NCBI GenBank assembly: GCA_963575745.1
Contig: CAUYUJ010019919.1
Span: forward strand, 1 to 64,000
Source: Prorocentrum cordatum
Lineage: Eukaryota; Sar; Dinophyceae; Prorocentrales; Prorocentraceae
Length of the DNA: 64,000 nucleotides
Reading direction: 5' to 3'
The position numbers and the translations under genes were made by a program. The stretch's first letter is position 1, and each line of letters opens with the position of its first letter. Positions 1-53,685 of the stretch are shown piece after piece. The notes under the pieces are model-generated. The model searched no databases and was not told where the DNA came from. It was given only the letters and a program-made list of their open reading frames with translations.

Positions 1-1
1 G

Positions 2-1687
2 CGCACGACGGCGCACATCGTACTGATCCAGGAGACAGGCTTCACGGAGCCCTTGATCGAGTCGCTGCACAGCTCGGCAGGCAATCGAGGTTGAAAAGTT
101 ACTGCTATACCAGCTCGCCCGACGAGTGGCATGGTCCCGTCAGGTGGTACTGCAGTTCTGGCTCGAGCTGATCTAGGGCTACGACACCCAGACGGCGGCC
201 AACTGGTATACGACCATCGCCTCCAGGACGTTTTGGTCGACCTGCCAGGATGGCCCAGCCTGTCTCTGTTGAACGTTTACTTGAAGGACTCGATCGGCGC
301 GACTGGCGAGAACACTGAAGTTCTTGCAGCTGCTGGTCAAATCATGGCGCGAACGGCTACGCCATGCATCATGGGAGGTGACTGGAACATGACGGGCCAG
401 GACCTAGAGGACTCAGAGTTTCCACGACTGGCCTCGGTGGTGATAGCTATGCCTGGTCAAGTCGCATTCCGAGGTGGTACTGGCTGTTCCACGATCGATT
501 ATTTCTGCCTTAACAACGCAGTTCAGCGAGGGCTTCGAGGAGTGCAGGTGCAAAGCAGTTGGCACAAGAAAGCTCATCGGCCAGTTCAACTAAAGATATC
601 AGACAACGGGTACTCGATCCAGCACTGCGTCTATACTGTCGCGCAGAGGCTTCCCGCTGTACTGCCTCCTGGGCAGCGCACGACGCCAATTGACTGGACA
701 GTTCATGCAGCTTTGGCAGATGAGGCAGTACGTTTGGCCCAAGACCCCACGAGGGATGCTGCCGTCGCTTGGGCCTTCCTGACCAGAGTATATGGAAAGT
801 TTGCAGTCACTGTTGCTGATTACATTGCTGCCAACACGTGCACCGAGCTCAAGAACAGCGGGGCTTACGGCAAGAACCTGGAACCTCGTTGGGTCAACGC
901 TGAATACCCCATGAATGTAGAGTCGGACATGCAGGCGATAGGCAAGGGTTGGCAGTGGCTCAGAGAAAGTTTGATCACCATCCAGCAGTTGTTCTCTAAA
1001 CCAGATATGATGGCAGAATGTTCAGAAGAGATTGCTCAGTTCTTACTGTCACCGTACCCAGGAGCTGGCCTAAGTGGACGATTGGATAGTGCAGTCTCTC
1101 AAGGACGCCAGGAGATCAATCAGATACCATTCGAATTGCCACGCATTCAAACCTCCCTGGACGAGATCGACGATGATGTAGAGCTGGCAAAGAAAGGTCA
1201 GGTAAAATATGCGAATGGGTCATGGGCAGAATGGTGCCGCATCGCTGCGAGTGGAGGTGCTCGACCTCTACGCCGCGTTTCCAACGTCCGAGCTGTCCCC
1301 GCACCTGCTTCGGCCATAGGAATACCTTCTGGGGACCCCGTGGTGATTGTGAAGCAAGAGGTGGCCCTCTACAGAAAGCTATGGGGCGCCAGCAATGCGG
1401 CAGCGGAAGCGTGGATCCCAGACAGAAGCAGCTGCCCACGACTTCAATCAGATCAAATACGTCGGATCTCGAAGTCATTTCCAGCTACGACTTCGGCAAG
1501 CCCAGGCAATTTTCACCCGAGGCATGCGGCGTTGCTGGACGACGAAGGATTAGAGGTGCTAGCTTCCATCTGGGAAGCGGCAGAGGCCATGGGTCTTGCC
1601 GAAGCAGCTGTGCTGGATGCAGATGCCTCTGTTGGGCAAGCCAAGTGGAGGCAACCGCCTTATTATTCTTTATGCGGGTATGTATAG
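2..1687 (+). pseudogene. Element 1 endonuclease domain and start of reverse transcriptase (ORF2, first part)
   Basis: The frame is open to the window edge. From base 2 it reads the start of an exonuclease-endonuclease-phosphatase fold with the hallmark QET motif (bases 29-37), then hits TGA at 92-94 and continues in the same frame with GGTAVLAR. Further on come GGDWN (metal/phosphate-binding Asn), STIDY (catalytic Asp) and AHRPV (catalytic His position), so the active-site set looks complete. The last third carries the GNFHPRH and DDEGLEVL stretch that precedes RT motifs in this group. The coding then moves to another frame near 1608-1622; residues after that up to the stop at 1685 are nonsense. 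The role in the family is to nick the target DNA to prime reverse transcription. It is degenerate because of the stop and the frameshift. Confidence 0.8.
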
Positions 1688-4082
1688 GATTTGGCATAGA
1701 GCCCGTCGCGCCATTGCTCAGAGCATGCATGATACGCTGGATCGAGGATACTGGGGCGCATGCAAAGGACGATCGGCAATTGACTGCGCATGGGCGCAAG
1801 CAGTACGTTCAGAATCTGATCAGATGACGCGCAGATATGGTATTGTTTTCAGTGCTGACTGGTCTAAGTACTACGAGACCATTCCCCTGGAAGTGCTGAA
1901 GTTGAAGTTTCTTCGTCATGGAGCGCCCACGTGCTGGCTTAAACTGGTATTCAATGTGTGGCTGAGCCCCAGAGTGATCAGACTTGGCCGACACCACTCA
2001 GATGTAGCTCTCTGTGCTCGGCTCGGGTTACCAGCTGGTGATGCTTACGCTGACTTAGCCGTCAAAGTCAACACCGTGGACGCTTTCGGCATGATGATAA
2101 CTAAGTCGCCGTTGATTGATTTTCAGAATTACATTGATGATTCAGGCATGCACAATTCTTCCGCTGATTTCGACATAGCGAAAGGTACGGCAGTGGAGGC
2201 TATCAAGAATTTCTTCGAGGCCAGCAGGCAGATCAACGCCGCCCTGAACGCTGAGAAGCTCGCGATCATCTCGACGCACCAGGCCTTGGCTGCAGCCGTG
2301 TGTGATGAGCTCGAGCTTCCGAGTTCGGTGATCCAGCCCAGCGTGTCCTACCTGGGCGTGGACGAGTCTGCTGGTGCAGTTCGGCGACGACAACGAGTGC
2401 GACTGAAGCAGCAGTCGAGGTTTGTTGCGATGCGAAAAAGGATCCGAAAGGTGCGGGCCATGAGGAAAGGATTCAAAGGTCCCAAGGAGATCCCATTCAG
2501 GAAGATAAATCGCCAGGGTGTGGCCACTGCGAGCAGTTTTGGAGTTGAGATCCGGGGACTTTCTGAGTCTGAGTGGCTAGCACACCAGCGTTTGATGAGT
2601 AGTTCAGATTCTCCCTCGCACTGTGGAGTTTCACTTTCAGCTATGGTAGTTTTAAACGGTGATAGTAGCACGAGATTCGCAGTGGCGCCCGCTATCCAAT
2701 GGCGCAGGGTGGTGTGGTCAGCTGCGACTCGCCCAGAGCACGCCCTTGTTAAGATGGCTGAACTCGTGTACCTCTGGGAATTATGTCGGCCCGCCAGTTG
2801 TAAAACTTGGCAAGAGTCCAGGGGCCCGATTTGTCGTGCTTGTCTGAGTTTGGCCCGTGCGGGCTGGAAGCACCGTGGTCCCCTAAAGTGGGCAGACCAC
2901 AATGGGCACGATGTTGATTTAACGCAGACCCCGCCGTCGCTTTTTAAAGACATGCTTGAGCTAGGAGTTCAAAGGCAACGCGAGTTTCGGTTGGCCCAGA
3001 AGCTGGGTCTCGACCCTGGGACGCGTGCCACGCTGGACCTAGTTCGAAAAGCTGTCTCTCTGAAAGCCAAGCGCCTGAGTAGGTATCAGAAGTATCTAAT
3101 AAAGAGCTGTGGCTGCCTAGGATTGTGGACTAACGATCGTGCTGAGAGGGTGGGTTACTTGTGTGACGGGTTGTGCGAGTGCGGTGAAAGGGACACAATC
3201 CACCACAGGCTCTACTGTTGCCAGTTACCCAAAGTTTCAGAGGCCCGTCAGGCCGCCGAGGTCTCTCCTGAGTTCCTGGCAGCGGCCCGAGCGGAGCCCG
3301 AACATCTGATTTTCACCACTGGCATTTTCACGTACCAGGACAGTGCGCTGCCGTGCCCGTTGGTTTCGTACGAGGTTGACGTTTTAGATCAGCACGGCAA
3401 CGCACTAGATTCAACCCCTGAGCAGATTGCCAATCTCACAACGAATGTGCCGCTTCGACTGGCCTCGGATGGATCAGGCAGCAAACCGTCGTTGAGGCCG
3501 CTGGAGAGAGCTTCCTGGTCCATCGGGGTCCTCCCTGACACCGGGGAAGATCCAGTAGCTTTCCCCCGCGGAGTGGTGCCAGGCATGCTTCCGCAGACCC
3601 CCGCCATGGCGGAACACGTTGGCATCGCACTGTGCGGCCAAGTGGCAAGCAGGCCCGCCGAGTTAGGTTCCGATTGCAAGGCCGCCATCCGTGTCACTCA
3701 GCAAGTCGTTTCGAGGCAGCTAGCGGCAGGAAGCACATTTGCAGGCATCAGACTTTTTGCGCAGGGTTTGGAGGGAACGCCTTTCATCCACACCGTGCGT
3801 CACGTGAAGTCGCACAGGTCCGATGAAGAAATGGCGATGCTCGAAGGCGAGGAAAGACTGTTTGCCGTGGCCAACGCAGCTGTTGACAGGCAGGCTAAAG
3901 CAGCGCTATCCCTCCACCCTGCACCAGATGCGGATTTCCTCCCTGATGTGAACCTCGCAGCCACCCGTGCGCAGAGTTTCATTAAATTAGCCGCTGAGGT
4001 CCTCCCGCTATTCCCCAATGAGGTGAGGTGGAAAAGACCTGTGCGGATCAGAGCAGGCCGCTCAAAGCGGACTGTTTATTAG
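1596..4082 (+). pseudogene. Element 1 reverse transcriptase and RNase H (ORF2, second part)
   Basis: Frame 3 continues the endonuclease polyprotein after a +1 shift. Counting from base 1596, the RT finger motif MPLLGKPSGG is at residues 10-19, motif A SADWS has its Asp at 88, motif B LGLPAGDA is near 143-150, and motif C is YIDD at 179-182. A cysteine/histidine cluster (CECG...HHRLYCC, 528-542) separates RT from RNase H. RNase H keeps all four acidic positions: Asp625 in SDGSG, Glu673 in MAEH, Asp693 in GSDC and Asp764 in AVDRQAK. This domain set copies element RNA into DNA and removes the RNA strand. The catalytic residues are intact; only the frame breaks and the TAG at 4080 mark decay. The first true in-frame continuation is uncertain, so the start given is only the open-frame limit. 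Confidence 0.85.
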
Positions 4083-4634: not shown

Positions 4635-4875
4635 TTCTGGAGTTTTTAGAGGGTTTCTCTCGTTTTAACTCCCTCATCCCCGATTCGTATCCCAGTTATA
4701 TCAAGCTGAGATTATTTAGTGCTGTGCACTCCCCCATAGGGCATTCCATTCCATTCCATTCATGCAGCCCCCCCCCCCCCTGCAGAGCGGACCCCCCCTC
4801 TCCCCTGCAGCCCCTCCCTCTGCCGAGCGGACCCCCCCTGCAGAGCAGACCCCCCCCCTGCAACCCAGCTCCCCC
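4635..4875. repeat. Element 1 3' flank, CATTC repeat and C-rich tract
   Basis: After the last stop there is about 100 bp of AT-richer sequence, a run of CATTC units at 4742-4762, then C-runs separated by GCAGAGCGGAC and TGCAGCCCCTCC. The CAGAGCGGACCCCCC motif recurs in reverse at 5870-5945, making 4760-5950 a loose foldback around the satellites between. No gene is visible. Confidence 0.6.
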
Positions 4876-32062: not shown

Positions 32063-33049
32063 CCCCTTCTTCTCCTCGACGAAGACGGCCTGCACGGGCA
32101 GGCTTCATCTCCAACTCCTCCTCATCCTCCCACCCGGCGGCGAGCCCAGAGGGGGTACCTGAGGGGGGGCGGGCTTCCTCAGAGGGCTCGGAAGTCCCCC
32201 AGCCTTCTGAGAAGTTTCCCACGCCTTTCCCGAAGACACAGAGAACCCCTCAGACGGCGCGAGGACTCGAGGACTTCTGAGAAGTCCCGCCGCCTTCTGA
32301 AAAGGTCTTCTCCTTCTCACTTCCCCCTTCGCTCGCCGCCGATCTTCGGACGGGGCGAGGGCGAGATAAATCCGTTCCGGAGCGTTTCGGAACGCCTTCA
32401 GAGCGTTCTGGAGCGCTCTGAGAAGGCCGCGGCGCTTGGTGCATCCTCAGAGCCGCTGGATCTCAGATGTCCTCGATGCATCCTCACCAGAATTTGCCCT
32501 CGTCCTGGTATCGTCTTATCTCTGGACTGGTCGTGGCGCCCGGTGCAGTATCCTCCAGAACCGCCAGATTTCAGAGATCCCCTACTTGTCCAAGCCCGAT
32601 TTCGTCCTGGTCCTGAGAATGAGTGAGAGAGAGAGGGAGAACAACCCACCCCCAAACCCACCAGGATTCTATATTTTGTTCTGGAATGCTTGTGGACTTA
32701 GTCGACACGCCCCTACGGCGACGATTGCGACTCGCATCGCTTCCGGTTTCACAAACATTGTGATACACCCTTTTCCGTTTTTGTGAAACAGTTTCTGCGT
32801 GTTTCATAAATGCGTTTCTTCGTTGATCACGTTGTCCCGTTGCACGTGCGCGGTTGCGCGATCTGATCCGTGTCCCAGGCAAATGCGTGCGCGGCAGTTT
32901 TTCTTTTCCCGGGCCCTCGGCGGCTGCATTGTACGCAAATTATTGCCAGGGGCCTCTCCTGGGGCGTACATGCAGCTGACGATGGTGGTCGGGCCACAGG
33001 CTCTCGAGGGAAGGTTTGAACATATGACATGTGATGTGCTGAAACACAC

Positions 33050-33848
<799 letters not shown>

Positions 33849-33850
33849 CA

Positions 33851-33872
33851 TCCGTAGCCATTTTGGCTCAAG
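33851..33872 (+). other. Genomic copy of the dinoflagellate spliced leader (DinoSL)
   Basis: All 22 bases match the known dinoflagellate leader (core GTAGCCATTTTGGCTCAAG, preceded by TCC). The next bases are GCAATG, not the GT donor of an SL RNA gene, so this is a leader already joined to an mRNA and copied back to DNA. It stands at the exact boundary between (CA)n and element 2, 178 bp before the ORF1 ATG. Confidence 0.93.
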
Positions 33873-34050
33873 GCAATGCGCCACCCGACGACCGCGAGTC
33901 CGAGAGGGCGTTCTGAGCGCGAGGGGTCGCGTTTTGGGATCAATTCTCGGAAAACGACTGTTCTCTGGGCCGCCCTGGCCAACGTTGCTCTTTGGGGAAC
34001 TGTATCGTGTGGCCCCCCCCACACACACTCCGCACAGTTTTGGAGCAGCA

Positions 34051-35262
34051 ATGGCACCAGTCGGTCGCAGAGACGAGCAGCGCACCAAGTGGTGTTGCAA
34101 GTGGTGCAAGGGACGAGATGGGAAGCCATTCGTCAACTATCCAGACAAGCTGGCCTGTCACTCGTGTGCTATGCCCAAGGCTGTGGCATTCAAAGGCAAG
34201 CCAGCGCCCAAGACAAATGTTCCTTCTACTCGGTCAGGGACCAAGCCGCCTGGCAGCGCAGGTGTGAAGCCTCTTGAGAAGCAGCTTCTGGCCATGTCCA
34301 ACAAGGTCGCGCAGCTGGAGAAGGAACTCAAGAAGAAAACAGACGCAGCCGATCGCTGACGACGCGGGTACTGAGCGCACAGAGCTTGACCTGGTCGCAT
34401 GCAGCAAGGCTCGCATTGCAGAGTTGGACAGCCTCATCACGCATCTCAGTCTCACGAAGCCTCTGCCCCCTGAGATCGAGGCGGTGGTCGAAGGCTATCG
34501 CAAGGAAAAGGAGCCCCTCCGCGCCCAGGTGTTCGAGGAGAAGCCTGTCCCCGTCAAGGTGCAGGAGCTTTCCAACAAGATCATTCGGTTGGACAAGCAG
34601 CAGCTGCGCTGGCAATCCACTCTGGACGAGAAAAAGGCCAAGCTCAAGAAGCTCGAGGCTGAGATTGCCGAGGGCGAGGATGCCATGGCCAAGTTGCGTG
34701 CTCAGCTGGTGGCTATGCACGCTGAGCGTGCCCAGTTGTGCAGTGTGCTTCCCGACCCGCATCCGGAGCCTCCTGAAGATGGTGCTGGCGATCGTTACAC
34801 GCTCTCTAAGATGTGCCTGGTGCTGGAGCGCATGGGCCTGGCGCACTCGCTCTCATCGAAGGTGGAGGGCGTTGTGGCCGAGCTTCGAGAGGCGGAGCTG
34901 GCGGCGCAGCGCGCAAAGCAGCAGAGGCAGGAGGAGGCCGCGCGCGCCGCTGCCCTGGCAGGTGGCCAAGCGGCTGCTGCGGCCGCTGAGGGCGTGCCTG
35001 AGGCTGGCGCAGCTTCGGGCGCTGGTCCTGTGCATTTGGCCCTCCAGCTCCTGAGGATTCGCCCATGGGCGACGAGGAGCTCGACAGCGCCACCACTGAG
35101 GAGCTCAGGGCTTTCCTCGAGGCCTGTGGGCTGGAGAAGCTTGCGGGCGGCACAGATGACGATGCTGAGCTGCGCGACGCTGTCAAGCGTTGCCTCAAGC
35201 CCCCATCTTGGCAGGAAGTCAAGCGCCGACGGAAGGCAGCAGCTGGCACCATGGATGCCTGA
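34051..35262 (+). pseudogene. Element 2 ORF1: zinc finger and coiled-coil (gag-like) protein
   Basis: ATG 34051 opens with MAPVGRRDEQ and a CKWC...CHSC zinc finger (residues 16-40). A first coiled coil (LEKQLLAMSNKVAQLEKELK) follows, then the frame shifts +1 near 34345 (the original frame stops at 34359). A second, longer coiled coil rich in Lys/Glu/Leu lies at about 34560-34740, then an Ala-rich linker. Near 35035-35043 the frame returns (PPAPEDSPMGDEEL) and encodes a short acidic LEACGLEKLAGG region and the basic KRRRKAAAG tail before TGA at 35260-35262. The two shifts cancel, so the protein would be continuous but for two indels. By family analogy it binds element RNA. Confidence 0.7.
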
Positions 35263-35272
35263 GACAGTCGCA

Positions 35273-36680
35273 ATGATGATGAGTCCAGGTAGCCAGAATC
35301 TCGAGAATAACCAGGCTGTGGAGCTTGCTTCGGAGGGCCATTTCGAGCGTGTCCGCTCTGGTGCCAGTGCGCGCACCCCGTGTGCCCAGGGGGAAGGGCC
35401 TGCTGCATGCGAGGCCCGCCGCGGTGGGATGGCCGATGCCCTCGCACATGGAGTTGCTGCTGGCGGCCTGGTGAGGTGCTGCGATGCTCACCCCACCGCC
35501 CTCCCTGTAAGTCCGAGCGAGGCCCGCGGCGGTGGGGTGGCCGATGCCCTCGCACATGGTGTCGCTGCTGGCGGCCTGGTGAGGTGCTGCGACGCTCGCC
35601 CCATCGCCCTCCCTGTAAGCCCGAGCGAGGCCCACAGCGGTGGGGTGGCCGATGCTCTCGCACAGGAAGCTCCCCTTGGCGGCAGGGTGAGGTGCTGCGA
35701 CGCTCGCCCCGTCGCCCCCCCTATAAGCCCGAGCGAGGCCCACCGCGGTGGGGTGGTCGATGCCCTCGCACATGGAGTTGCTGCTGGCGGCCTGGCGAGG
35801 TGCTGCGACGCTCGCCCCGTCGCCCCCCCTGTAAGACCGAGCGAGGCCCACCGCGGTGGGGTGGTCGATGCCCTCGCACATGGAGTTGCTGCTGGCGGCC
35901 TGGTGAGGTGCCGCGACGCTCGCCCCGTCGCCCTCCCTGTAAGTCCGAGCGAGGCCCACCGCGGTGGGGTGGCCGATGCCCTCGCACACGGAGCTGCTGC
36001 TGGCGGCCTGGTGAGGTGTTGTGACGCTTGCCCCGTCGCCCTCCCTGTAAGCCCGAGCGAGGCCCACCGTGGTGGGGTGGCCGGTGCCCTCGCACAGGGA
36101 GTCGTTGCTGGCGGCCTGGAGAGGCGCGGCAACGATCGCCCCGTCGCCCACCCTGTAAGCCCGAGCAGGACCCACCGCAGGGAGGTAGCCGATGCCCTTG
36201 CAAATGATGTTGCCGAAGTCGGCCTGGGAAGGTGTTGCGATGTTCGCCCCACCACCATCCCTGTAAGCACGAGCGAGGACCACGCTGGTGGGGTGGCCGA
36301 TGCCTTTGCACATGGAGTTGCTGAAGGCGGCGCTGAGAGGTGCTGCGACGCTTGCATTGTTGAGTTGCACGATGGCGAGAGGTATAGCCAGGCTCCAGGG
36401 AGGAGTCCGCCACGGCGTCGACGACCTGCTCTGCCTGAGGACACACCGTGCACAGTGGCGGACCACACGACACGGCCTGGGCTTCATATTGTCACCGTCA
36501 ATGCGAACTCGCATGGGACGCTGATGCGGTATCTAAACACGGCGGACGCGGACATTGTGCTCGCCCAGGAGACACATGCGACCGACACCAAGCTCCCAGA
36601 GGTACAAGCTGATGCTCTTGATCTGGGCTGGCGGGGACAATGGCTGGCGGCTACCCCTACCCTAGATGGAGGCTCGGAAG
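35273..36680 (+). pseudogene. Element 2 ORF2, N-terminal part: 36-residue repeats and start of endonuclease
   Basis: ATG 35273 lies 10 bases after the ORF1 stop. The frame is open through nine copies of a 36-codon repeat (35411-36382) and then reads LHIVTVNANSHG...DADIVLAQETHA, the first strand and catalytic Glu motif of the endonuclease (36483-36580). It leaves frame in a run of eight G at about 36679-36686. One G fewer would restore GGVAVLAR, so a single-base homopolymer insertion explains the break. Confidence 0.7.
35411..36382 (+). repeat. Nine-copy 108-bp in-frame tandem repeat in element 2
   Basis: GAGGCC starts at 35411, 35519, 35627, 35735, 35843, 35951, 36059, 36167 and (as GAGGAC) 36275, a strict 108-bp period. 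Translated in the ORF2 frame, each unit carries GGVADALAHGVAAGGL then RCCDARPVALPV. The Cys-Cys pair and the GGVADA motif are the best kept. The outer copies are the most diverged. Confidence 0.95.
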
Positions 36681-39401
36681 GGGGGGGTGGCAGTTCTCGC
36701 ACGCACGTACATCCAGGTAACTTCAGCACCTTTCCTCAAGGCAGGGGAGATCGTTCCAGGGCGTGCTGTTGCTGGAGTGGTGCACGCAGGACCCTCTGGC
36801 GGACTGGTTTGCGTCTCATTGTATCTGTTCACTGGCGAGGGCCGCACGCCACGTAACCTCGCCATCGTCTGGGAGGTCTGTAAATCTGTCAAGAGGTTGT
36901 CTGATGCAGGGTACCCGTGGCTCATCGCTGGAGACTATAACATGACGCCCGACGAGTTGTTAGAGCACAACTGGCTGCATTTGGTGAAGGGAGTGTGTTG
37001 TGCTCCGTCCAGTCCCACCTGCGTGCAAACCCTTCCTGGGCGTGTGCTGGACGATTTCATCCTCCATCGGTCCCTCACTGATGCGAAGGCGTTCTCCCTG
37101 GACGTGCTGGTGGATACGAGTCTTTGGCCTCACCAGCCAGTCCAGCTACAACTGCCTCATGCCAAGCTAGCACTGCGGAAGCGAGTCCTGAAGCAGCCGG
37201 AGGCGTTCCCTCCCCTCAAGCCTGGATGTGCTCGCTACCCATGGTGTTGGGGGAAGGTCATCACGGATGCACAGCAGGTGCAGAGCGGTGGGCAGCTGGC
37301 CGCAGTCTGGGACCTCATGCTAGATGGCATTGAATGGGAGCTTGCAAATCGACATGACCTTGTGGGTCGACAGAGAGCCGCTCACCTCGGGCGTGCAGGC
37401 CCCCCTGTGTTGCGTAACCTACCAGTTGCCTGGGCACCTGCACGTCGGCGCGAGCGTTTTGGCAGGACCGCTTCGGCTTGGGCGGTAGCTGCGCGGTGGG
37501 CGAGGCACCTCAAGTCCGTCCGTCAGGTTTTGTTGCGGGACATCGGCGTGCTGGATGCCATGGCAGGGAATGCCGAGGCCGACCCCAAGTTGCTACAACG
37601 CTTGGGCCAACTCTTGCATGAGGCAGAGGTGTACACTCGCAAGCTCCTGCGGCAGCACCATCTTCTTGATTTACTTGATGCCGAGGCGCGTGCGTTCTTC
37701 GCCGCTGGTTTGGAAGGGCTGGCGCTCGACACCTTTGAGGAGCAGGTGGGCCGCATCAGTCCGAGAAGCGACGTTCACAGCAATGCAGCAGGGGCGAAGG
37801 CCACGGCGGCTTGGCAAGAGTGGGCGAATGCCTCCTTTCTAGGAGGTGCAGGGCTCGCCCACAGATTCACGAAGGTGAAGATGGAAGTGGGAGTGCCCAC
37901 TGCTGGCAGCTCGTGCCAGCCCACTGCCCTGGCCGATGCGGAGCTTGACGTGTGGGCAGGTATTTGGCAGCATCACCAGCTCCGTGAGGTCGACCCCCCC
38001 GCAGGCGCCGAGAACTGGGGTGACCTCGAGCCCGTCACGGTGGCCAAGCTGCGCGAGGTGCTGTACACCTTCCCCGTTAAGTCGGCAGTGGGGCAGACTG
38101 GCCTTCACCCCAGGCAGCTGGACCAGTTGTCCGACACGGCCCTGCTCGCAGTCTCTTTGGTCTTCACTCTTTGCGAGCAAAGGCTGCAGTGGCCGCCTGA
38201 CAGGCTGGCTACGATCCTCGTCCGCTTGCCCAGGGCCAGCGGGGGAACCCGACTGATTGGCCTGCTGAACTCTCTGCTGCGAGTTTGGGGCCGAGCGAGG
38301 CGCCCAATTTCCGCAGACTGGAGTAAGGCACATCGGAGTGCGCACAGCTGGGGCTCGGGGGCGGGTCGTAGCTCATCGGCATCTGCTTTCTGCTTGGCGC
38401 TGACTAACGAGATGGATGTGGCGCACGGGAAGAAAACGCTCACGCTGCTGATCGACATTTGGAAATGTTTCGAGCTTATCGACCCCAGCGTCCTGCTGCG
38501 AGAGGCCGCATTAGTCGGTTACCCGTTGAGGATGGCCTGGATGCGCATTCAGGCTTATCGGCAGCGACGCACTCTGCGGGCGCACGGCAGCGAGTCGAAG
38601 TTCTTTGTCTCCGAGCAGGGCATCGTGGCAGGATGCCCACATGCGACGACAGTGCTGGAGATCCTCCTTTATAGGTCCATGTGTAGGCTCTCGGCGATCT
38701 GCCCCAATGTGGCGCCTCACCAGCTGGTGGACGACACGTCGCTGAGATGGAGTGGAGCTGAGGCGCAGTGTGCAGAGGAGGTGGCCCTGGCAGCCGACGA
38801 AGCACAGGAGGCGCTCACTGACCTTCGATTGCCAGTGCAGGTGAAGAAGCTGGGCTATGTCGCCTCGGACGCGGCCACGGAGCGCGCGGTGCTGCGGGTC
38901 ACTCAGCAGCGCCACATAGCACGCCAGCGCTGGATGCGTAACCTAGGGCACGGGCTCACGACGGTGCGGCCGTTACGGCTGCAGGAGCAGGTGCGGATGC
39001 TCGCGCTGCGCACTCGGGTACGACGGCTCCATATCCTCAAACGTGTTGTGGGGGTTCGACGGATGGCACGGATCCAGAGCACAGGCCTCGCACCCTCTGT
39101 GCTTCACGGTGCGGCTGTCATGGGCGTGGCTGAGCATGTTCTGAAGCCCGTGCGCACGCTTGCAGGTGCCTTAGCAGGCGTGAAAGCGGCGGCTTCTTTG
39201 ACGACAGGCTTGGTGATGCAGCGTCACCGTCTTTGCTGCCACGTTGGAGCTGCCCTACCTCTACGCGTCGTGGCTGTGGGAGGCGAAGGTGTCCATCACG
39301 CAGCCCCAGCACGCTTGGGAGGTGACGGTGTCTCGTATGCAGAAGGCCGAGACATGGTCCAAAGTCACGGGCCCGCTCTCGGCACTGTGGATGACGCTTA
39401 G
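36666..39401 (+). pseudogene. Element 2 ORF2, middle part: endonuclease and reverse transcriptase
   Basis: Counting from 36666 (frame limit, not a true start), GGVAVLAR resumes the endonuclease, with AGDYN at 88-92, LDDF at 128-131 and PHQPV at 155-159 as catalytic positions. A connecting region of about 300 residues leads to RT: GQTGLHPRQL near 476, LPRASGGTRLIGLL at 521-534, motif A LLIDIWKCFE with Asp597, motif B QGIVAGCPHATT at 651-662 and motif C LVDD at 687-690 (V replaces the commoner aromatic). The thumb region continues to about 39225, where coding passes to the next frame. The residues needed for polymerisation appear intact. Confidence 0.85.
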
Positions 39402-41691
39402 ACGTGTTGGCTGGTCTATGCGATCGGCACATGAAGTTATCACCGACGAGAATGTGTATTTCTCTCTACTGGCGGTGGCACCTCGTGATTTCCGAGGCTT
39501 ACTGGAAGCTGGAGTGCAACGGTGGCAGATGCGGCGTGCACAGCAGCATCCCCCAGGCTATGATGGCGAGGTCCTCTGGTATCGGGCAGTTCGTGCGTGC
39601 ATCCATGGGCCTCGTGCTGTGCGAGACTCGGCGGAGCTGGGAGCTTTGCAGTGTCTGTGGACAGGCGCCATGTGGCCACGAGAGAGAAAGTTCTGCCATG
39701 GCTTTGTTTCGTCGCCTAATTGTCTCGCTTGTTCGGCCATGAGACCCGAGACCCTCGGGCATCGTTGGCTTGGCTGCCCCGCGCTGCTTGAAGGCACCGT
39801 AGCGGACCCGTTGGATGATGACACGCGTGAGCACAAGCGTAGGGTCGCTACGCGGGAGCTGATGCGCAAGGAGGCGCTTGAGTCCGCGGACCCCACGTTC
39901 TTTGATTCGGTCCAGCACGCTTTCGCGATGCCGCTGGTCCCACCTAGCTCTGAGAGGCCCGACAGAACTCCTGAGCAAATTTTTGAATGGGGTGATCCTG
40001 AGGTTCCCTGGGAAGGCACGGTCTACACGGATGAGGCTGGCCAGGATATGCAGGTTCCCGAGCTTGCGCTGTGTGCCTGGGCGATTGTCCAGCTGGATTC
40101 CCAGGGCCGCCCGTCCAAAGCCAGGTTTGGAAGCCTCCCAGGGATCCAGTCGGTGCCCAGAGCTGCCAGGTATGCAGGATACCAGGCCATTCTCGCTTCG
40201 CGGTGTGTAACTAGAATCGTAAGTGATCGCCTTTCCCTGGTCCAAGAGGGCGAGCGTTGGGGCGAGAGCGAGGTTTCGGCCGCCGCTCGCCACGCCGAGA
40301 TTTGGCGAGCCATAAGAGCCACGGTCGAGCGGCAGGCCCGCCCCCCGCCCCGCTTTGCCTGGACCCCGTCTCACAAAACGGCCGAAGAGGCGCTTAGTCG
40401 GGGGGTGGGGGTGATGGCCTGGCTGGGGAACGCGTGGGCGGATTTCTTTGCCACTGTGGCGCTGCATGTTGTCACGATCAGCCCTAATTTCGGCAAAGGC
40501 CTGGAATTGCGCCTCGCCGAAGCTGTCAATCGCGCCAGGTTTGTGGCTTGTGCTGGCAAGCGAGTGCTGAGCTCAGGACGGTGGGATGGCCCCAAGGACG
40601 AGCCCCGTGCCCGCAAGCCCCCGCCAAAGCCGCCCAGCCTTGCCATTGTTTCTCATGATCTGGCGCCCGATGGAAAGGGTTTCAGATGCAGGAATTGTAA
40701 CAGAGCGGGGTTTTCGGAAGAGACGATCCGCGGTCTGCTGACCCGCCCCTGTCGGCCCTCCACCCTGCTCCGAGTTCGAGCCGCGGCTTTTTTGGCGGCG
40801 CACAGCCCATCCAGAGCCGAGGAGAACACTGCTCCCCCCTCGTCCCAGTCTGCCCTTGCCCTGGGTCTGGCGGCCGCGGCAGCGTGTGCTGCGACGGCGC
40901 GTCGCGGCGACTCCTGCGCTTCGCAGGGAAGGCCTGAGCAAGGGCGTGAAGATAGCAGGTCTCCCCGACGCGAGGGCTGTGCCGCCCCTGCTGCGCGCTC
41001 AGCCACGGCGAGAGATGGAGGCGGTGGGGGCCCGTCGTTGTCGTCGTCGGAGAGGCGGAGGAGGGATTCGACCGAGGAGCGGCTAGCCGCGCGCACGGCT
41101 CGCCTCCTCAGAGCTGCAGAAGGCACACCCGCTACTCTTGTCTCTGTCGCCTCGCCTCCCACTCTTGCGCCACCCACGGCAGGATTGCTGGAGGCCCCCC
41201 TGGAGGAGCAGGATGCGGGTGATTTGCGGGTGGGCGACTCGACGCGCGAGGAGGCTAGGAGGGCGGGGAATCGTGCGATGCGAACTCGTGCGATGCGCCC
41301 TGCCGCTGGCCCCTCGCCTGCGGCGGCGCCTGGAGCGGCGCAGCCTGCGGCCGCTGCCCCCGCTGCCCTGCAGGTGCAGGGCCAGGGCTCCCGAGCTGCC
41401 GCCGCTGCTGCTATCGCCGTGGGGGCGGGTGGTCGTGGGGAGCGTGATGAGGAGGTCTCGAGTGTGCTTGGACACGAGATCATCCAGCGACCGCCTTTCA
41501 CGGTTTGTCAGCGATGTGGAGCGTACGCCAAGCGGCAAGGGCGGCTTTTGGGGGCCCCCTGCCTTGGCGTCCTCCCCGCCCCTGCACGGTGTGCCAACCC
41601 CGCGGAGCGGGAACCGGCCAAGCGCCGTGACCGCCTGGTGGCGAAGCTCCACCCTGTGACGGGGGCCCCCCTCGCTCCTGGTCGGGGTTAG
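39230..41691 (+). pseudogene. Element 2 ORF2, C-terminal part: RNase H and zinc knuckles
   Basis: The frame resumes with LELPYLYASWLWEAK and the WSKVTGPLSALWMTLRRVGW block seen before RNase H in such elements. Then come a CLAC...GHRWLGC cluster (residues 160-178 counted from 39244) and RNase H: VYTDEAG with Asp263, a Gly at 312 (RYAGYQAI) where the catalytic Glu belongs, SD at 327-328, WTPSH and Asp400 in NAWADFF. Two knuckles follow, CRNCNRAGF...RPC (482-503) and CQRCGAYAKRQGRLLGAPC near 41510, separated by an Ala/Arg-rich spacer. TAG ends it at 41689-41691. The lost Glu is one transition (GAA/GAG to GGA) and would cripple RNase H. Confidence 0.82.
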
Positions 41692-41948
41692 GCCCCAGGT
41701 CCTTCAGGTCTCTGGCGAGGCCCTGCAGGCTGTGTTTGCCTTTTTGGTGCGGTCTGGCGACCGCCTCTGTGCTCTGGCCCCTTTTTGGGTCTCTAGAGTT
41801 GCCTTGCAGGCTCGGCCTGCCCTTGCGCGCGGTCTGGGGACCGTGTACTGTGCTCTGGAGCCTGGAGAGGCCCCAAGAGCCCTCGGCCCTAGTGGCCCGT
41901 CACAAGTACAGGGCTGCGTTCGACCACGGACGCGGTCTCTTTGACGAG
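41692..41948 (+). other. Element 2 3' UTR
   Basis: Non-coding, with three loosely repeated CTCTGG...GGTCTGG(C/G)GACCG blocks, ending at GACGAGCG before the (CA)n run. No poly(A) tail is seen. Confidence 0.6.
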
Positions 41949-42003
41949 CGACACACACACACACCACACACACACACACCACACACACACACTGTGTGTG
42001 TGT
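41949..42003. repeat. (CA)n tract at the 3' edge of element 2
   Basis: ACACACAC with two CACC interruptions, then CTGTGTGTGTG. The 5' flank of element 2 is the same repeat with the same kind of CACC interruption, consistent with insertion into (CA)n. Confidence 0.92.
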
Positions 42004-42719
42004 TGCCTTCATGAATGGAGTCGGGGGCGGCAAAGAGGGGGGGGATATCATGTCGTGGGCCACGATATCTCCCCAGACTTCATGGCGGCCCTTCTTATTT
42101 CATTACGTTCCCTGGCCCCCCCGCTGGGCCGCGCACATGCCGCCGGTCATGATTTGCACCCCCCCCTCTTGGACCCCCCCCCCTTGGCCGCTCCCGATGG
42201 AGATTTTTCACCGTTTTCAGCCTCTGGGGGGCCCCAGGACCGTCAGTGAAAACGACTCGGGATGGAAACCGAGGGCCCGCAAAGTGTGCAGTGACCACAC
42301 TGTGGGGTGAATCGGCACGGATTCCGGGTGACCGCACAAGTTTCCCAATGTGCCGCAGTTTTCAACCCTCGATGTTCCGGGTACTCGGACTTTTTCGTGG
42401 GTTCCCGGAGGTCTTCCAGCTTCGAGCTACTTTCTAGCAGCTGCGCATCGCCGAGAGCGTTCCGGGGGTGCCCGAAACATCTCCAGCGGCCGGCAGAGGC
42501 GGGAGGTATGGCCCGAGAACCAAACCGCCAGTGCAACGTATTTAGAGATCAGAAAAGCCACCCCCATATTAAGCGCCCCGACAAGCGGAGCCGTGCAGCA
42601 AGCGCACCCAAGGGAGCAGTCGAACATGGCAGGGCTGATTCGTAAACGCCCAAGGCCGTGTAGTGAACGCCAGTGGTCGGGGTCTGGGTGGCTTTTCCTC
42701 CCGTGGGTACACGCTGGTC
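42004..42719. other. Low-repeat sequence, no gene recognised
   Basis: Contains a GATATCATGTCGTGGGCCACGATATC hairpin-like block (42043-42070; only its arms GATATC and CCACGATATC are exact) and blocks at 42400-42480 related to 16805-16880 (AGCAGCTGCGC...). Open frames are short. Confidence 0.4.
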
Positions 42720-42885
42720 GTTGAAAGTAGGTATTTTTGGACCCCCAGATCCCAATCAACTTCCAGCGCCTTCCTTAGCCTTCCTACTTCAAGAATCGAC
42801 GCGTTTTTGCTGTGCTTGTTTTATTCTCTGGGGCTGCCTGAGCCCAATCAGCTTCATCCGCCTTCCTACTTCCTGTTCTTACCTA
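42720..42885. repeat. Dispersed repeat family J, copy 2
   Basis: CCCAGATCCCAATCAACTTCC, CGCCTTCC and CTGAGCCCAATCAGCTTCA in the same order as 28724-28870 and 49855-50010. Confidence 0.65.
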
Positions 42886-43299
42886 CAGTGGGGGCGCGTA
42901 CCAAGAAACCAGCTGGATTTTGCCAGGGTGCCCGGGGTTTCTTGGATTTCGATGGGCCCCCGATAAGATCCTGACGATTTTCGATCGACACTTCAATGGG
43001 TTCTCACTGAACCAATCGCGGATTTCAGGGTCGGGCTTCCTGCGGAGGTCTCTTGTGGCCGAGCCCCCACCTGCACTTCTGCCGGCCGACGTGTACTGAC
43101 CACCAGCGCGGAGGCCTGCTCCACTGCTGTGGCCTCCGAGGGCCCCCGCGGGGCCCCCATCGGGACCGTCCACGGAGGCGGCTCTCGGGGCGCCGAGCCG
43201 GCCCTCGCGGGAGGGGGGGGCCTCCGGCCCCCCCCCGCAGTGCAACGCGCATTCTTTCGGGAAACAAGAAGTGGCAGAAACATAAAACCCCCATCCATC

Positions 43300-53663: not shown

Positions 53664-53685
53664 TCTGTAGCAATTTTGGCTCAAG
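53664..53685 (+). other. Decayed spliced-leader relic
   Basis: TGTAGCAATTTTGGCTCAAG with its two preceding bases matches the 22-nt dinoflagellate leader at 20 of 22 positions (changes at positions 3 and 9). It is followed by CCGCTTCCG, not a GT donor, so it marks the 5' end of an old retroposed mRNA rather than an SL RNA gene. Confidence 0.8.

Follow-up and report, generated by a model that had tools for sequence, protein, structure and literature searches.

The window (the whole stretch of DNA analysed here, 64,000 nucleotides or 64 kb of Prorocentrum cordatum contig CAUYUJ010019919.1) contains an 8.1-kb LINE-like element on its forward strand. The unit considered below extends from the first nucleotide of a dinoflagellate spliced leader (DinoSL; SL) at 33851 to 41950, where the non-repeat sequence of the element ends and (AC)n and TGTGTG follow. 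Upstream, the unit abuts a long CA-rich microsatellite array. The features of the locus are listed in Table 1. Four open stretches distributed over the three forward frames tile positions 33853–41691; the three frame changes and the lack of any other internal stop would fit a fairly young copy. The ATG in the presumptive 5′ UTR, just 3′ of the SL, starts a frame of 133 aa. Rfam searches gave no match within 33700–34300 at E up to 1, nor in the whole window at the gathering threshold, and the folding of the first 200 nt is unremarkable (z = −0.20).

Table 1. Features of the LINE-like element and its flanks (window coordinates)
Feature	Position	Strand	Remarks
CA-rich microsatellite array	33044-33850		807 bp; CACG units for about the first 110 bp, then CA; ends at 33850
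5′ copy of candidate 18-bp target-site duplication	33833-33850		ACACACACACACACCACA
Presumptive 5′ UTR	33873-34050	+	178 bp; upstream ATG at 33876
ORF1 start	34051-34359	+	Cys-rich (CCKWC...CHSC, motif read by eye); 102 aa to stop after frame change near 34340
Second-frame continuation	34268-36856	+	coiled-coil-like part, 108-bp repeat array, endonuclease start (36485-36607)
108-bp (36-aa) tandem repeat	35409-36352	+	8.7 copies; within coding region, upstream of endonuclease
Run of eight G	36680-36687	+	reading frame changes here, inside endonuclease domain
Remaining endonuclease and reverse transcriptase	36666-39401	+	RVT_1 at about 38238-38861
C-terminal part	39217-41691	+	RNase H-like motifs conserved in P0001 and P0002, then Cys motifs
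3′ UTR	41692-41950	+	
3′ copy of candidate 18-bp target-site duplication	41951-41968		ACACACACACACACCACA
(AC)n at 3′ junction	41951-41992		period 15; then TGTGTGTG

The similarity of the coding region to known domains is weak. The reverse transcriptase matches RVT_1 with an E-value of 2.5e-6 and 27.8 bits, under the Pfam cut-off of 29.6, and Exo_endo_phos, split by a frame change, gives two matches (E 0.0021 and 0.011) that are both under the cut-off. The C-terminal part has no profile match above E 0.16 and no match in a sequence search of the PDB at E up to 0.1; the motifs only suggest that it may be RNase H-like. AlphaFold models are too poor to use, with a mean pLDDT of 37.2 for the reverse transcriptase part and 34.9 for the RNase H-like part. 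Of the 47 direct-repeat families in 33860–43000, the 20 largest include no long terminal repeats; within that set, the longest direct repeat besides the 108-bp array is 44 nt at 70% identity. Judged from the sequence, the combination of a reverse transcriptase, an APE-type endonuclease and the lack of long terminal repeats characterizes the element as LINE-like, that is, as a putative non-LTR retrotransposon.

Protein searches, in which the best 7994 or 7995 candidates by shared words were scored, identified two relatives, P0001 from Prorocentrum cordatum and P0002 from an ENA contig. Their identity to the element is 28–40%, depending on the piece. Over 190 positions, the coiled-coil-like part shares 24% identity with P0001, and P0002 aligns in two pieces at 38% identity within 36696–40845. 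P0002 itself contains PF03372 above the cut-off (E 8.2e-9) and RVT_1 below the cut-off. Among the scored candidates, the closest named protein is from Prorocentrum cordatum (30% identity), and an ORF1 query of the protein set gave no relative. Three protein or alignment queries of viral contigs likewise gave no relative of the element, and a self-comparison of the window revealed no second copy. All inferences on the 5′ end are therefore those that one element copy permits. A second LINE-like element occupies positions 1–4082, where it is truncated by the start of the window. It is a distant relative of P0002 (∼22% identity), reaches about 4.1 kb or slightly further, and has its 5′ end outside the window; a short ATTCC-like repeat (about 4742–4763) is located ∼660 bp past its last ORF.

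The sequence TCCGTAGCCATTTTGGCTCAAG at 33851–33872 (plus strand) is a complete 22-nt DinoSL. It agrees at 22 of 22 positions with DCCGTAGCCATTTTGGCTCAAG, the dinoflagellate SL as printed in PMC7245778, including position 1 (D = T). The match terminates precisely at the SL exon boundary (CAAG), and the bases directly 3′ of it, after position 33872, are GC. The preliminary description had located a perfect SL where the CA array stops (33850), separated by 178 bp from the start codon of ORF1 (34051), and these coordinates are correct, the spacer being 33873–34050. A scan with an SL 21-mer at up to 3 mismatches returned this site as the sole exact match in the window, and the same scan of 100 dinucleotide shuffles returned zero matches; the chance expectation for an exact 22-mer is ∼7e-9. 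With two SL-like sites per window, the probability that one of them lies on the same strand and at most 200 nt upstream of ORF1 is ∼0.003, as a simple product. The SL at 33851 is single, with no tandem partial SL. With up to 3 mismatches allowed, a 15-nt relic matches the window at four sites (33858, 53671, 51762 and 5971). The second SL-like site of the window is the relic TCTGTAGCAATTTTGGCTCAAG at 53664–53685 (plus strand; 21-mer match at 53665–53685 with 2 mismatches), which is probably the mark of an older retroposition; the sequence behind it has no similarity to the LINE described above.

SL matches were also observed in other contigs. Among viral contigs, the SL 21-mer identified one, L001 (IMGVR_UViG_3300045993_001077), a virus-like contig of 22% G+C with two exact DinoSL 21-mers on the minus strand (2913–2893 and 2766–2746). 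Behind the second of these lies a stretch with 49% G+C, measured over 960 nt, that includes an intact ORF; it looks as though the cDNA of an SL-tagged dinoflagellate message had been taken up by a viral genome. A further viral contig, L004, added by an 18-mer scan, was judged from its context to be a chance match. The 21-mer scan of genome contigs identified L002 and L003. In L002, a (TCA)n microsatellite runs directly into a complete SL (1–57), and the ATG of a 49-aa ORF follows 4 nt later; the contig, whose longer ORFs look bacterial by eye, is a second instance of a full SL that starts at the end of a microsatellite. L003 contains an SL on the minus strand (4354–4334) followed by GTACGC, resembling a genuine SL RNA gene; as this contig is filed under a Dehalococcoidia MAG, it possibly represents eukaryotic contamination.

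CA repeats abut the unit on both sides. Perfect CA tracts of at least 12 bp number 10 in the 64-kb window, and all of them lie within 33052–33846 or 41951–41992; perfect TG tracts of at least 12 bp are absent from the window. Both flanks share the 18-bp ACACACACACACACCACA exactly at 33850/33851 and 41950/41951, a candidate target-site duplication. The duplication is weak evidence alone because the sequence involved is simple repeat; at 29 of the array's 748 cut points (3.9%), the match to the 3′ flank reaches at least 18 bp, and most cut points match over 13–15 bp. When the 3′ boundary is left free, the match at the SL boundary increases to 19 bp, compared to 18 bp with the boundary fixed at 41950, and 33 of the 748 cut points match over at least 19 bp. 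On the same terms, alternative 5′ boundaries between 33873 and 34061 yield 10 bp at most, the best being at 34029, directly after a short CCACACACAC inside the 5′ UTR (34019–34028), and at 34030. The restriction of CA tracts to the two flanks, together with the candidate duplication, thus supports a single insertion of SL plus LINE into the CA array, which was presumably the insertion target. An analogy with RTE elements, which terminate in simple repeats according to PMC2887409, suggests that the 3′ (AC)n could instead be the element's own tail. The SL was previously taken to be the exact 5′ terminus of the element, and the boundary comparison upholds this assignment: we consider it very likely that the SL is the 5′ end of the inserted LINE copy and not the relic of a neighbour.

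The best explanation, which we regard as likely, is that a LINE copy made from trans-spliced element RNA was reverse-transcribed as far as the leader's first base and inserted at (CA)n. The element RNA would first gain the SL by trans-splicing. Target-primed reverse transcription would then start at the (CA)n microsatellite, traverse the element and end with the first base of the SL; as a result, the copy would open with a complete SL and have CA repeat on both sides, which is the arrangement seen at 33851–41950. On this boundary evidence, the earlier proposal that the RNA of the element is trans-spliced, and that the leader is carried into the new copy, probably holds for this copy. Its extension to every round, a regular SL-dependent life cycle of the element, is a tentative idea that we consider rather unlikely.

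More weakly, a copy that starts with the SL may bring along its own splice acceptor. The dinucleotide AG is absent from the array (33044–33850), and in 33001–33872 it occurs only at 33007, 33012, 33856 and 33871. Since there is no AG between 33014 and 33855, a transcript reading through the array could be trans-spliced within the inherited SL, where the first AG encountered would be that of GTAG (33856) and the next that at 33871. Re-splicing at the first AG would yield SL + CCATTTTGGCTCAAG, and reads would then run SL + CCATTTTGGCTCAAG + GCAATGCG. With the last AG, re-splicing would simply regenerate the SL and leave no trace, so that a single SL cannot separate one round from many. SL + CCATTTTGGCTCAAG is a relic form known from transcripts (PMC12014239), and transcript relics are described as beginning with CCA, genomic relics as retaining CCGTAG (PMC6616646). 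Since TG has been proposed as an additional acceptor (PMC12014239) and genes with tandem SLs as an alternative origin of relics (PMC6616646), the GTAG step is not the sole reading of these forms. In its fullest version, the scheme would describe a LINE lineage whose copies start with the SL, lack a promoter of their own, lie in microsatellites of transcribed regions, and are read through and re-capped via the inherited SL acceptor; the enzyme of this lineage would also act on SL-capped messages of the host, placing them likewise in microsatellites, as the arrangement in L002 may illustrate, and would in this way account for the dinoflagellate retrogenes. We offer this version as a conjecture that is less likely than not.

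A serious contender, somewhat short of probable, is that the copy was processed once. A normal element with a longer 5′ UTR and its own promoter would have been trans-spliced a single time at a cryptic acceptor, and the resulting promoter-less copy would have been dead on arrival. The SL would then mark an accident and not a life cycle, and this accounts for the sequence equally well. The proposal has its first step in common with the best explanation, and our assessments of the two are not exclusive. One round of splicing predicts the single SL without a tandem partial SL, but exact reuse of the last AG of the SL also leaves a single SL after repeated rounds. The three frame changes in the copy agree with a single event, as does the report that full-length RNA is not trans-spliced in L1Tc (PMC8190864) or in Cer1 (PMC3315495), whereas the retention of a 178-bp 5′ UTR and of the ORF1 start codon counts against it.

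It is unlikely that the SL and the LINE arrived separately, in a nested arrangement where an SL-tagged host mRNA was retroposed beside the CA array and a LINE later entered its 5′ UTR, for example at CCACACACAC. SL-tagged host retrogenes are described as common (PMC12014239, PMC6050394), the SL-like relic at 53665–53685 stands without a recognised LINE, and a 10-bp candidate duplication is available at 34029. Such a history, however, would reduce the outer CA tracts to a coincidence, even though the window has no other perfect tract of at least 12 bp, and its duplication is shorter than the 19 bp found under equal conditions at the SL boundary.

LINE reverse transcriptases can switch templates, and the enzyme may have jumped from element RNA to an SL-bearing RNA at the end of the first strand. 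We consider this quite improbable, as the junction coincides with the end of the SL exon (CAAG), which is predicted by splicing and not by a random jump. LINEs of the SLACS/CRE type insert within SL RNA genes and have SL remnants at their junctions. It is highly improbable that the SL described here derives in this way from an SL RNA gene or pseudogene targeted by a SLACS/CRE-like element, since the SL copy flanked by the CA array and the LINE is single and uninterrupted, the 3′ junction has CA repeat and no SL fragment (15-nt relic scan, up to 3 mismatches), and the real-looking SL gene in L003 continues into GTACGC; the GC that follows the SL does not decide the matter, because G(U/C) donors were accepted for Fugacium SL genes (PMC6616646).

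The closest parallel to the arrangement at 33851 is provided by DinoSL-tagged host retrogenes, in which a genomic SL is likewise located 5′ of a reverse-transcribed and re-inserted RNA (as described in PMC6050394, PMC12014239 and PMC7245778). By the boundary argument, and for one copy, the SL here also lies directly 5′ of the copied RNA. The difference is that the retrotransposon itself is tagged, with a complete SL that starts at a microsatellite and a visible candidate duplication. The trypanosomatid L1Tc/ingi elements with Pr77 are also LINEs whose hosts use SL trans-splicing. L1Tc is reported to produce unspliced transcripts from an internal promoter, with the 5′ end freed by an HDV-like ribozyme (PMC8190864); at our locus, in contrast, the Rfam search of 33700–34300 detected no such ribozyme, and it is the copy that bears the SL. 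Spliced mRNA of Cer1, a Ty3/gypsy element of C. elegans, occurs with and without SL1 (PMC3315495). Cer1, however, is an LTR element with an 8-kb message, whereas here a full-length copy bears the SL.

Additional comparisons concern other parasites and other LINEs. A dinoRNAV with a 5′ dinoSL (PMC10235124) is similarly a parasite RNA that bears the host SL, although it is a +ssRNA virus and not a LINE; among endogenised dinoRNAV fragments, a dinoSL was reported nearby in 6 of 26 RdRp ORFs (PMC10235124). The SymbioLINE elements of Symbiodinium are likewise dinoflagellate LINEs with two ORFs, those highlighted having a DNA methyltransferase in ORF1 (PMC5890265); neither "spliced leader" nor "splice leader" occurs in the main text of that paper. 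RTE elements of Lepidoptera also combine LINE ends with simple repeats, but their repeats form the 3′ UTR of the element (PMC2887409), whereas the CA repeat described here flanks both sides. No description of a LINE copy headed by an SL was found in open-licence PMC papers, among the matches listed and as far as their available text extends. An SL-capped LINE would be new relative to L1Tc and Cer1, whose full-length RNAs lack the SL in the accounts cited above.

Dinoflagellate genomes are reported to contain many SL-tagged retrogenes. According to a review (PMC6050394), it is not known which type of retroelement produced them, and LTR elements are favoured. A LINE that had indeed been copied up to the opening base of its own SL would show that SL-capped RNA is accepted by LINE machinery. 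It would also raise a testable question: how does such an element keep a promoter when trans-splicing replaces its 5′ end? The copy described here suggests that the RNA of a jumping gene was handled like a host message before it was copied back into the genome.
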